Under the pieces are notes generated by a model. That model ran no database searches and was not told where the DNA came from. It saw only the letters and a list, made by a program, of their open reading frames with translations. This document shows, one piece after another, positions 58,926 through 62,465 of a stretch of DNA of 64,000 nucleotides; position 1 is the first letter of the stretch; every line of letters begins with the position of its first letter. The DNA lies in the NCBI RefSeq assembly GCF_003326015.1, contig NZ_CP023860.1, positions 1,054,001 to 1,118,000 on the forward strand, given 5' to 3'. The position numbers were made by a program, and so were the translations under genes. The stretch is from Candidatus Thioglobus sp. NP1 (GTDB taxonomy: Bacteria > Pseudomonadota > Gammaproteobacteria > PS1 > Pseudothioglobaceae).

Positions 58926-60386
58926 TTAATTGTTACTAATTGGAAATCTTAATTTTGCTTCAGCACCTTTTTGAATAAAGCGATTTTGAAGCGTTATCTC
59001 ACCACCATGAAGTTTCATTATTTTCTTTACAAAACGAAGTCCTAAACCATTTCCTCTAACCCCAGTATCTGGTCTAGAGACAGAGAAAAATCGAGTAAAT
59101 AGCTTTCTTAGAACATGATCAGGTATGCCTGGACCATCATCAAGAACAACTATTGACATAGCAGTATTTGTTTCAGATGCCTTAATAGTAATAGTCCCTC
59201 CAGTTGGGCTAAAGTCTAGAGCATTATTTATAATATTTCCAATAGCTTGTTCTAATAATATCTTTTCAGCATTTATGGTTGATTTTTTAGCAATCTCTAT
59301 AACAACTTTAATTTTTTTACTTGCAATTGCTTTAATCCTAATAGGTGCATTTAAGACATCATTTACTACAGAAACAATTTTTAATTTCTCGATTCTTGTT
59401 AGTTCCTCTAACCGCTCTATTCTTGAAAGATCAAGTAATCTAGTTACTAATAGATCCATATGTTTATTTGACTCTAAAATATTTTCAATAAATCCCTTTC
59501 TCTTTTCATCACTCATTGGTTCTAATAGAACACCTGCAGTAAGTTGAATTCCAGCTATTGGAGTCCTAAGTTCATGAGCTAGAGTACTAATATATTGCTC
59601 TACATCATCTTTAAGTTCTACTTCATTTCTAGCATCTTCAATTGTCTTAGCAAGACTATCAAACTGAATATTAAGATCTGGCATAGAAACGTCCTCTCCC
59701 TTGAATAGACTAGTGGTATATTTTTGAATACGGCGGATGTTTCGAGAGATTCTATAACTCCCAAGAACTCCAAAAATTAATGAGATTAAAAATATATAAA
59801 AAATAAATTTAAATAAATAATTAATATCTAATAAGTCCATCATTGGAGCAACAACTACAAGTGCCCCAATTACCTCGCCAGTATTACTATAAATTGGATT
59901 TGAGGCATGGAGAAACTCTGATTTATAGAACCATTCAGTGATAGCACCTCTTCCTTTTTTTGGTCCTGGAATGAGTTCTGTAACAACCCTGATAATATCT
60001 TCCTCACCCTTTAGAACCGAATCAACTTGATTCAGGACACGCATATCTATACCAAGAGCTAGACCCCTTGAATCAAGAACAAGTAGGCCATCCTTGTTTG
60101 TGACGTAAATAGCGAGATTCTCAAGTTTTTGATTGGATTCAATGGCTACAGTATTCTTTTGTGAGCGCAAATAATTAACCACTAGGCCTTCAAAGGTTTC
60201 TAGATCAATTTCACCATCTTTATTATTTTGAGAAGCAACTCTACTCATTAAACTTGAAACTTCAATCATCACTGATTTTGCAGATTCGATACTGGTTCTA
60301 TAAGCAAAAAACCAAACCAATGTTGAGCTTACCAAAAAGTAAAGTATAAAAAGTTTGGTTCCAATATTTAATTTAAAGTGTCTCAT
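58926..60386 (-). CDS. CreC-like sensor histidine kinase
   Basis: 486 residues. Helix 1 (about 10-29), a periplasmic sensor region (about 30-190) with LAIYVTNKDGLLVLDS, helix 2 (about 190-212), HAMP-like linker, then HisKA with the phospho-His in LAHELRTPI and HATPase with NNALDFSP, DDGPGIPD, NGLGL and the FTRFFSVS segment. Periplasmic sensor and layout resemble E. coli CreC. It follows the regulator with a 4-nt overlap. Signal unknown. Confidence 0.88.
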   Translation of the reverse strand: MRHFKLNIGTKLFILYFLVSSTLVWFFAYRTSIESAKSVMIEVSSLMSRVASQNNKDGEIDLETFEGLVVNYLRSQKNTVAIESNQKLENLAIYVTNKDGLLVLDSRGLALGIDMRVLNQVDSVLKGEEDIIRVVTELIPGPKKGRGAITEWFYKSEFLHASNPIYSNTGEVIGALVVVAPMMDLLDINYLFKFIFYIFLISLIFGVLGSYRISRNIRRIQKYTTSLFKGEDVSMPDLNIQFDSLAKTIEDARNEVELKDDVEQYISTLAHELRTPIAGIQLTAGVLLEPMSDEKRKGFIENILESNKHMDLLVTRLLDLSRIERLEELTRIEKLKIVSVVNDVLNAPIRIKAIASKKIKVVIEIAKKSTINAEKILLEQAIGNIINNALDFSPTGGTITIKASETNTAMSIVVLDDGPGIPDHVLRKLFTRFFSVSRPDTGVRGNGLGLRFVKKIMKLHGGEITLQNRFIQKGAEAKLRFPISNN

Positions 60387-61051
60387 TCAATAAGACTGTA
60401 TCCAATTCCCCTGTGAGTCTCAATATACTCCGCCTTATCATCAATTTTTTTAAGACTCTTGCGGATTGACTTTATATGAGTATTGATTGTTTTTGTATCT
60501 GATCCATGGGGACTATCCCACATAATATTCATCAAATCCTCTCTTGAATGAACTCTATTAGGGTTTTTAATTAAGTGCGATAAAATTTTAAATTCTATAG
60601 GAGTAAGAGTTAGCTCAATTTCATTAAATACAACTCTTTGCATGGCTTGATTAATACTGAATTTAGAATCACCAGGAGTTGCGTTTGGACGATTATTTCT
60701 TAACTGGGAGCGAACATGAGCCACTACTAATCTTGGGCTTAATGGCTTTGTCACATAAGCATTTGCACCCAATCCCTCTAGACCAAGAACTTGGTCAGAC
60801 TCATCATCTCTTGCAGAAATAATAATTATGGGAAGGGTATGAGTTTTTCTAACTTTTCGAAGAATATCAAAACCACTCATATCAGGAAGGCCAATATCAA
60901 GAAGCATTAAATCGACATTATTATTATCAAGATATTCAATTGAATCTTTGCCATTATCAAACCACTTACAACTAAAAGAATCCTGCTCAAGAATAAATAT
61001 TATGCTTTCAGCAATGGTTTTATCGTCTTCTACAATTAGTATTTGTTGCAT
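60383..61051 (-). CDS. CreB-like OmpR-family response regulator
   Basis: About 222 residues from ATG 61051 (MQQILIVEDDK), which is preferred to an upstream TTG at 61072. Receiver domain with LDIGLPDMSG, then the OmpR winged helix (LTPIEFKILSHLI, THIKSIRKSLKK) and the CreB-like end YIETHRGIGYSLIE. Overlaps the kinase gene. The three 11-bp CTTCA repeats 64 bp upstream of its start look like CreB-type (TTCAC-N6-TTCAC) sites. Confidence 0.88.
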   Translation of the reverse strand: MQQILIVEDDKTIAESIIFILEQDSFSCKWFDNGKDSIEYLDNNNVDLMLLDIGLPDMSGFDILRKVRKTHTLPIIIISARDDESDQVLGLEGLGANAYVTKPLSPRLVVAHVRSQLRNNRPNATPGDSKFSINQAMQRVVFNEIELTLTPIEFKILSHLIKNPNRVHSREDLMNIMWDSPHGSDTKTINTHIKSIRKSLKKIDDKAEYIETHRGIGYSLIE

Positions 61052-61114
61052 TAGAGCTTGTTTTATATCCAAAAAAAAGATTATTGTAGTTTAAAAACAA
61101 ATAAAAGAAATAAT

Positions 61115-61147
61115 CTTCATAAATTCTTCACATAAACTTCATTTATA
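61115..61147 (+). promoter_or_regulatory. Three tandem 11-bp CTTCA repeats (CreB/PhoB-type site)
   Basis: CTTCATAAATT, CTTCACATAAA and CTTCATTTATA lie head to tail. They fit TTCAC-N6-TTCAC, the E. coli CreB site, with TTCAT in two units. One helical turn per repeat and a position just upstream of the -35 suit an activator. Confidence 0.6.
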
Positions 61148-61153
61148 AAACAT

Positions 61154-61182
61154 TTGACACTTTGTTGCAAAGTCTATTATGT
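61154..61182 (+). promoter_or_regulatory. Promoter with an internal dyad, downstream of the CreB-type repeats
   Basis: TTGACA (61154-61159) and TTATGT (61177-61182) are 17 bp apart. The spacer carries the dyad ACTTTG-TTG-CAAAGT (61159-61173), perfect over six bases. Confidence 0.5.
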
Positions 61183-61396
61183 GCATATTGTTTTTAGTTT
61201 ATTAGAGTCTATGTAACGAAAACCCCTTTTAGTTACATTTTAAAAATAATGGCTAGTGAACTGTCTAATAATTTTAGATTATACATTAGCTTAATATTTT
61301 TCTCTAATAGCTAAAAACAATATTATTGATTAGTTTTTTTTAAAGAACCTCGGAATCTCATATCATTCTCTCTCCGTTTGATATATGAGGTACTCG

Positions 61397-61439
61397 CTTC
61401 AGTTGGTCGGTCACTCCTACCAACCAACTGAAGTTTTTT
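61397..61439 (+). terminator. Strong terminator-like hairpin before the 56-aa ORF
   Basis: An 11-bp perfect stem (61397-61407 with 61423-61433), an inner 3-bp pair and six T. A second hairpin (61357-61389) lies just upstream. It ends 11 nt before the ORF start, so most transcripts would stop here, leaving a ~250-nt RNA. Confidence 0.75.
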
Positions 61440-61450
61440 AAAGGTGATAT

Positions 61451-61621
61451 ATGATTACACGATCTAAAAATAAAATTATCAAAACTCCTAGTAAAAGCTT
61501 AACGAGCTCTTATTGCCAGAGAAATAATATTAATGAACAACAGTTTTTAAAGGCAATGGCATGGTACCAAAGCGCTATTATTAGTTCTAAAAAAAATACA
61601 AATAATCTTTCAACGAACTAA
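61451..61621 (+). CDS. Small basic ORF with possible helix-turn-helix
   Basis: 56 residues (MITRSKNKIIKTPSK, then SSYCQRNNINEQQFLKAMAWYQSA), with AAGGTG 5 nt upstream of the ATG. The middle resembles the homeodomain-like segment of IS66 TnpA-type proteins, but it is too short to be sure. Ribosome site and codon use support it as a gene. It is preceded by a terminator and followed by the peroxiredoxin gene 35 nt later. Confidence 0.5.
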   Translation: MITRSKNKIIKTPSKSLTSSYCQRNNINEQQFLKAMAWYQSAIISSKKNTNNLSTN

Positions 61622-61656: not shown

Positions 61657-62184
61657 ATGCGTCTATCTGTTATTAAACCACTATTCTTTTTAGTATTTCT
61701 ATTAATTACTTCTTCCTCAGTATTAGCCAATCTTGAAGTTGGAGATAAAGCTCCAAACTTCATTCTGAATGATCAAAACAATGAATCTCACCAATTGAGT
61801 GATTATGAGGGTAGGTGGGTAATTCTTTATTTTTATCCTAAAGACGATACTCCAGGTTGTACCACTCAAGCCTGCGACTTTAGAGATGCAGTTAAAAGGA
61901 TTATTGCGAGCCGATCTGTTGTATTTGGTTTAAGTTTGGATAGTGTCGAGTCGCACAAACGCTTTTCTGATAAAAATAACTTGCCATTTTCACTATTATC
62001 AGATGAGGAGGGTGTGGCTGCAAAATCTTATGATTCTCTTAACAACTTTATGGGTTATAAAAGTGCAAAGCGTAATACTTTTATAATTGATCCTGAAGGC
62101 TTCCTATCCAAGATCTACCTTTCAGTAGATCCTAAAACACATTCACAGATGGTTTTAAATGACCTCTCTTTATTACAAAAATAA
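61657..62184 (+). CDS. Exported BCP/PrxQ-type peroxiredoxin
   Basis: 175 residues. Signal peptide (PLFFLVFLLITSSSVLA), then the thioredoxin fold with catalytic YPKDDTPGCTTQACDF (peroxidatic and nearby resolving Cys) and DSVESHKRFSDKNNLPFSLLSD. It would remove peroxides in the periplasm. Distinct from the cytoplasmic Prx6 at 24.5-25.2 kb. Confidence 0.93.
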   Translation: MRLSVIKPLFFLVFLLITSSSVLANLEVGDKAPNFILNDQNNESHQLSDYEGRWVILYFYPKDDTPGCTTQACDFRDAVKRIIASRSVVFGLSLDSVESHKRFSDKNNLPFSLLSDEEGVAAKSYDSLNNFMGYKSAKRNTFIIDPEGFLSKIYLSVDPKTHSQMVLNDLSLLQK

Positions 62185-62195
62185 ATTTAATTTTT

Positions 62196-62465
62196 CTAAT
62201 TATTATTTATTAAATTTTCTTTAGATTTTTTTGACATTTTTTTAATAGTTATTTCACGCTTTAAAGCCTCACCTCTTGATATAGCATTCTCCTGATAAAC
62301 TATTTTTAATGGCTTTCTAGATCTAGTATATTTTGCACCACCATTAATTTCACCATGATGTTGTTTAAGACGTCTATCTAAGTCATTAGTGATTCCACAA
62401 TAGAGGGATTTATCCCCACATTCAAGAAGATAAATTATCCATTTTTTTGTAGGAATATCAGTCAT
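62196..62465 (-). CDS. GIY-YIG domain protein
   Basis: 89 residues: WIIYLLECGDKSLYCGITNDLDRRLKQH (GIY-YIG core with conserved Tyr and Arg), ending with KREITIKKMSKK. Single-domain UPF0213/YhbQ-type nuclease-like protein of unclear substrate, convergent with the peroxiredoxin gene. Confidence 0.9.
   Translation of the reverse strand: MTDIPTKKWIIYLLECGDKSLYCGITNDLDRRLKQHHGEINGGAKYTRSRKPLKIVYQENAISRGEALKREITIKKMSKKSKENLINNN

Follow-up and report, generated by a model that had tools for sequence, protein, structure and literature searches.

The window analysed here is a 64,000-nt stretch of the Candidatus Thioglobus sp. NP1 genome, which is a single contig of 1,689,404 bases. Within it, an RNA locus is flanked on one side by a creC-creB-like gene pair (58926-61051, minus strand) and on the other by a small ORF and a peroxiredoxin gene (plus strand). 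The genes and the elements between them are as follows.

58926..60386, minus strand: creC-like sensor kinase gene (best NCBIfam model CreC)
60383..61051, minus strand: creB-like response regulator gene of the OmpR/PhoB family (best NCBIfam model CreB)
61083..61088, minus strand: TACAAT, probable -10 element of the divergent creB promoter
61115..61147, plus strand: three 11-bp units, CTTCA-N6, a putative CreB site
61148..61158, plus strand: AAACATTTGAC, conserved, continuing the 11-bp register, a possible fourth, degenerate unit
61154..61159, plus strand: -35-like TTGACA
61175..61180, plus strand: -10-like TATTAT, after a 15-bp spacer
61187..61439, plus strand: structured RNA of ~253 nt, its ends placed from the promoter and terminator positions
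61451..61621, plus strand: small ORF of 56 aa (YCQRNNINEQQFLKAMAWYQSAI), 3′ of the RNA and outside the RNA itself
61657-62184, plus strand: peroxiredoxin gene

A small GIY-YIG domain protein (PF01541, 89 aa) is also encoded in the window at 62196-62465. The small ORF, which has no Pfam match, is possibly regulated.

The product of the creB-like gene carries Response_reg and Trans_reg_C domains. The initial annotation had described it as CreB-like, and the NCBIfam models bear this out. CreB scores 237.1 bits against 176 for the next model (equivalog cut-off 273), and CreC scores 303.7 bits for the sensor kinase against 134 for the next model (equivalog cut-off 356). Each leads the other models clearly, and neither reaches its equivalog cut-off, so we refer to the proteins only as "CreB-like" and "CreC-like". 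CreD (PF06123) is present in 0/29 genomes of the genus, while the E. coli control was positive. Because of the scores below cut-off and the absence of CreD, the DNA specificity of the regulator is assigned by analogy. The cre tag is defined as TTCAC-N6-TTCAC (PMC4689548), and the repeats fit it as proposed; the window has TTCAT-N6-TTCAC-N6-TTCAT, and the exact tag occurs in seven loci of the set (L013, L014, L018, L020, L022-L024). The best-matching regulator and kinase families, the TTCA-c half-sites and the 11-bp period are those of the CreBC (BlrAB) systems of E. coli, Aeromonas and Pseudomonas. The locus differs from these systems in having three units rather than the two of the known tag, in the lack of CreD and the scores below the equivalog cut-offs, and in that the site here putatively controls an RNA. 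With a CreB/CreC-like pair beside a match to the cre tag, activation of the RNA promoter by the CreB-like regulator is the best reading, though an unproven one.

The three repeat units, CTTCATAAATT (61115-61125), CTTCACATAAA (61126-61136) and CTTCATTTATA (61137-61147), stand where they had been placed in the initial annotation, with a perfect CTTCA in each at an 11-bp period, and they end 6 bp before TTGACA as it had noted. The window has no other perfect CTTCA triple at that period. The first 400 kb of the same genome, used as background only, contained no triple at the 11-bp period with two or fewer mismatches. A degenerate pattern (three or fewer mismatches), run against the genus's 29 genomes, matched the locus in 23, once in each, and was present in all 11 near-complete genomes; a reversed control pattern gave a single match in one of the 29 genomes. 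The same 29 genomes held no further triple-box site except one 3-mismatch, repetitive-looking site in one genome (G012). As far as the triple-box search shows, the CreB-like regulator appears to serve this one RNA only. The 11-bp period is itself conserved. In the alignments the register is free of indels in sister genera and across the same-genus loci whose contigs reach the repeats. The mean information is 1.48 bits for the CTTCA columns, 1.49 for AAACATTTGAC and 0.37 for the promoter spacer; in this alignment the anchoring went wrong for three loci (L008, L025 and L043) through contig ends or anchor failure. On the other side of the intergenic region, the alignment also keeps ATTGTA, the probable -10 of the divergent creB promoter. 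The CTTCA repeats start near the expected -35 position of that promoter (61083-61147), thus the repeat site could be a control point for creB as well.

The spacer of 15 bp between TTGACA and TATTAT is short for an unaided sigma-70 promoter. Since AAACATTTGAC is conserved and stands in the 11-bp register, TTGACA may in part reflect a fourth, degenerate repeat unit. In genus g3, AAACAT is retained and TTGACA is not, a pattern that suits an activator-dependent promoter. A second factor had been proposed to repress the promoter at a dyad in the spacer. The dyad, ACTTTG-N3-CAAAGT, is indeed present in the window (61159-61173); the stretch that holds it is the least conserved one, and relatives do not have the dyad, so we rejected it as a repressor site.

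The structured RNA that had been expected behind the promoter is conserved across the genus, with its predicted start six nt after the -10. The sequence 61187-61439 folds with a z-score of -8.7, and the copy of one relative with -7.5. It contains the following elements, all on the plus strand.

61187..61197, plus strand: closing stem, left arm, ATTGTTTTTAG
61211..61216, plus strand: relic start codon followed by an immediate stop (ATG TAA)
61211..61238, plus strand: 5′ hairpin with loop ACCCCUU, replacing former signal-peptide codons
61311..61321, plus strand: closing stem, right arm, CTAAAAACAAT, which forms K-N-N codons in coding relatives
61347..61391, plus strand: hairpin A, covarying stem, C/U-rich loop (UCUCUCUCC)
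61396..61439, plus strand: hairpin B, covarying stem, loop CACUCCU and U-run, terminator-like

No Rfam family matched the window RNA at the gathering score or at a permissive E-value. R1, a covariance model of the final 112 nt of the RNA, found one strong site each in 23 of the genus's 29 genomes; all 11 genomes with a completeness of at least 90% have it. Covariation in the two 3′ hairpins is well above that in shuffled and slid controls. The closing stem shows paired deletions, its T run and its A run each being one base shorter in the same four sequences. One early-branching locus, L021 (genome G017), retains the repeats, the 3′ hairpins and an open frame 75 codons long, and has no 5′ closing stem. 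The window RNA was also considered as a coding gene and rejected: its ATG is followed directly by TAA, and no frame of at least 12 codons starts in the first 60 nt.

In sister genera, the creB neighbour at this locus is a gene of ~207-214 codons for a protein with an SH3 domain and a membrane anchor (TIGR04211; both of the two SH3 proteins tested score over the cut-off). Its promoter bears the same CTTCA repeats. ATTGTTTTTAG also stands at the start of the SH3 mRNA. There it pairs with codons about 35-40, and the 5′ stem formed in this way encloses the ribosome-binding site and the start codon (L031-L044, first 150 nt). All eleven pairs of this stem hold in 14 SH3 loci, where the changes are one-sided only. 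This enclosure suggests that the coding relatives control the SH3 gene at the level of translation. The 3′ end of the message is also shared. In the coding loci, two hairpins with C/U-rich loops and strong covariation follow the SH3 gene, and a class GN sortase gene comes next; R1 also matches directly 3′ of the SH3 stop codon in 14 sister-genus loci. A covariance model built from the coding relatives only (R2) has the window RNA as its only match (E 7e-7), and in 321 genomes of the class no match was found outside the window's own under strict filters that may lose weak matches. From the 5′ stem common to both and the matches of R1 and R2, the two ends of the RNA are homologous to the two ends of the SH3 mRNA. 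The window RNA thus appears, from these comparisons, to be the remains of an SH3 protein-coding message.

One observation concerns the gene upstream of the CreB-like gene in L027 (genome G051), which resembles the VIT-domain protein of a dedicated sortase system. From this neighbour, CreB-like regulators may be linked more widely with sortase systems.

The reading frame is lost in steps, and both RNA parts persist. A well-supported branch of the CreB tree splits the SH3-coding loci from the window's genus, and the frame goes from about 210 codons to 75, 51, 13 and 0. Early-branching members of the genus keep a shortened frame: 73-76 codons are left in L013, L014, L018, L020 and L021, 51 in L022 and L024, and 13 in L023. 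There is none in the main group. The pN/pS of the eroded frames is 0.4-1.1, against about 0.2 in the coding ones, though the counts are small. A distant TIGR04211 paralog is retained elsewhere in the genome. The sortase gene at the locus survives within the genus only in L014 and L018, and the RNA persists where the sortase is gone. The small ORF is retained at the locus from which the SH3 and sortase genes were lost. It has relatives within the genus, and the ORF that follows the sortase in L026 (ITEQQFKQAQAWYQGAK) is probably another relative. A decaying frame of this kind could also mean that the whole locus is a functionless relic of the SH3 gene, conserved only because the loss is recent. 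We regard this as very improbable, as compensatory changes, including the paired deletion on both stem arms, and conserved loops are seen after the frame was lost, and since the RNA is present in 11/11 near-complete genomes and the site upstream of it is conserved as well. We would put at about an even chance that the loci form a complete natural series from a bacterial mRNA to a regulatory RNA, in which the promoter, the 5′ stem and the 3′UTR hairpins are kept while, from one sister species to the next, the frame is worn away in steps. What is left would be a two-component system with, judging by its binding site, only one non-coding RNA to serve.

The loops point to a mode of action. The anti-Shine-Dalgarno motif CUCC is found in the hairpin A loop of 35/35 sequences. 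Loop A is about 90% pyrimidine and loop B about 82%, and TTCTCTCTCCGTT of loop A is almost invariant within the genus. CCUCC occurs in many loops of the coding relatives. Several known sRNAs are comparable. LhrC, an sRNA family under LisRK, binds Shine-Dalgarno regions through multiple CU-rich motifs (PMC4132741), a group of rhizobial sRNAs is marked by anti-Shine-Dalgarno CCUCCUCCC loops (PMC3927594), and CpxQ is carried in the 3′UTR of an envelope gene driven by an envelope-stress two-component system (PMC4817254). The window RNA resembles LhrC of Listeria in having several C/U-rich loop motifs, and its putative two-component control would be a further likeness. Unlike the multicopy LhrC, it is single copy, and the window gives no LhrC (RF00616) match. 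In a permissive Rfam scan, LhrC was the best weak match to one 3′ element of the coding relatives (L034), at 38.9 bits, far below the gathering score of 110. With the rhizobial SmelA075 and SmelA099 families (CCUCCUCCC loops) it shares several hairpins, conserved anti-Shine-Dalgarno loops and variable stems; those families are alphaproteobacterial and have another genomic context, and no such Rfam family matches here. The likeness to CpxQ, from the 3′UTR of cpxP, lies in the coding relatives, which have an envelope-protein mRNA with a 3′UTR RNA element. In the 14 sister-genus loci this element is directly downstream of the coding sequence and in the same predicted transcript, as for an RNA of the CpxQ type. 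The difference is that in the window's genus, with the protein lost, only the RNA remains under the promoter. Taking the CUCC loops together with these three parallels, an sRNA that is switched on by the CreB-like regulator and pairs with Shine-Dalgarno sequences is the best reading.

Exact complements of loop A show no excess over the control. This would fit an RNA that acts as a sponge for a protein or the ribosome through anti-Shine-Dalgarno-like loops, instead of pairing with particular mRNAs, and so would the recurrence of one short C/U-rich motif in several loops with variable stems. We consider a sponge improbable. Loop A is longer and, within the genus, more conserved than the bare motif (TTCTCTCTCCGTT), which suits specific pairing, and no GGA loops of the kind found in CsrA sponges were seen.

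The main rival to a stand-alone sRNA is a cis-acting leader, in which hairpin B would be a conditional terminator, an attenuator that sets read-through into the small ORF (in basal members, the sortase), and the loops would be sensors for a protein, ligand or ribosome. In nearly all loci, whether coding or non-coding, the next gene starts just after hairpin B, and the RNA usually ends in the hairpin and U-run ahead of the small ORF. In one sub-clade (L010, L012, L015 and L017) the U-run after hairpin B is missing, so some read-through into the genes behind the RNA is possible there and, in the case for a leader, counts as likely. The initial annotation had named these genes as targets together with the RNA. 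A leader is harder to reconcile with an RNA that stays in place while the next gene switches from the sortase to the small ORF. Hairpin A, loop A and the closing stem are conserved as well, though a terminator needs none of them, and a non-systematic look revealed no alternative antiterminator pairing. Thus, we find a leader rather unlikely, though less so than a sponge or a relic.

We therefore return to a CreBC-activated sRNA that pairs with ribosome-binding sites and was exapted from an mRNA, an explanation that, taken whole, we think somewhat likelier to be right than wrong. The repeats would be bound by the neighbouring CreB-like response regulator, which in its phosphorylated form would activate the short-spacer promoter and give the ~253-nt RNA. 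The C/U-rich loops of this stand-alone sRNA (ACCCCUU, UCUCUCUCC and ACUCCUA) would most likely pair with Shine-Dalgarno regions, and the pairing would repress the target mRNAs. Its ancestor would have been the mRNA of the SH3 envelope protein, with the 5′ closing stem and a two-hairpin 3′UTR, followed by the sortase gene and the small ORF. Loss of the protein frame in the window's genus would then have brought the two RNA ends together.

In a literature search, we found no papers joining Thioglobus with a small RNA or with a two-component system, and the papers naming both CreBC and an sRNA appear, from their titles, to do so incidentally. The origin of bacterial sRNAs is rarely visible because the intermediates are usually gone. 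At this locus the coding relatives, the truncated intermediates and the RNA without an ORF coexist in one conserved place and under one conserved promoter. With such a series one can test whether the RNA was already active inside the mRNA and then outlived the protein. The CreB-type regulator of these streamlined marine bacteria would also gain a concrete and apparently single target.
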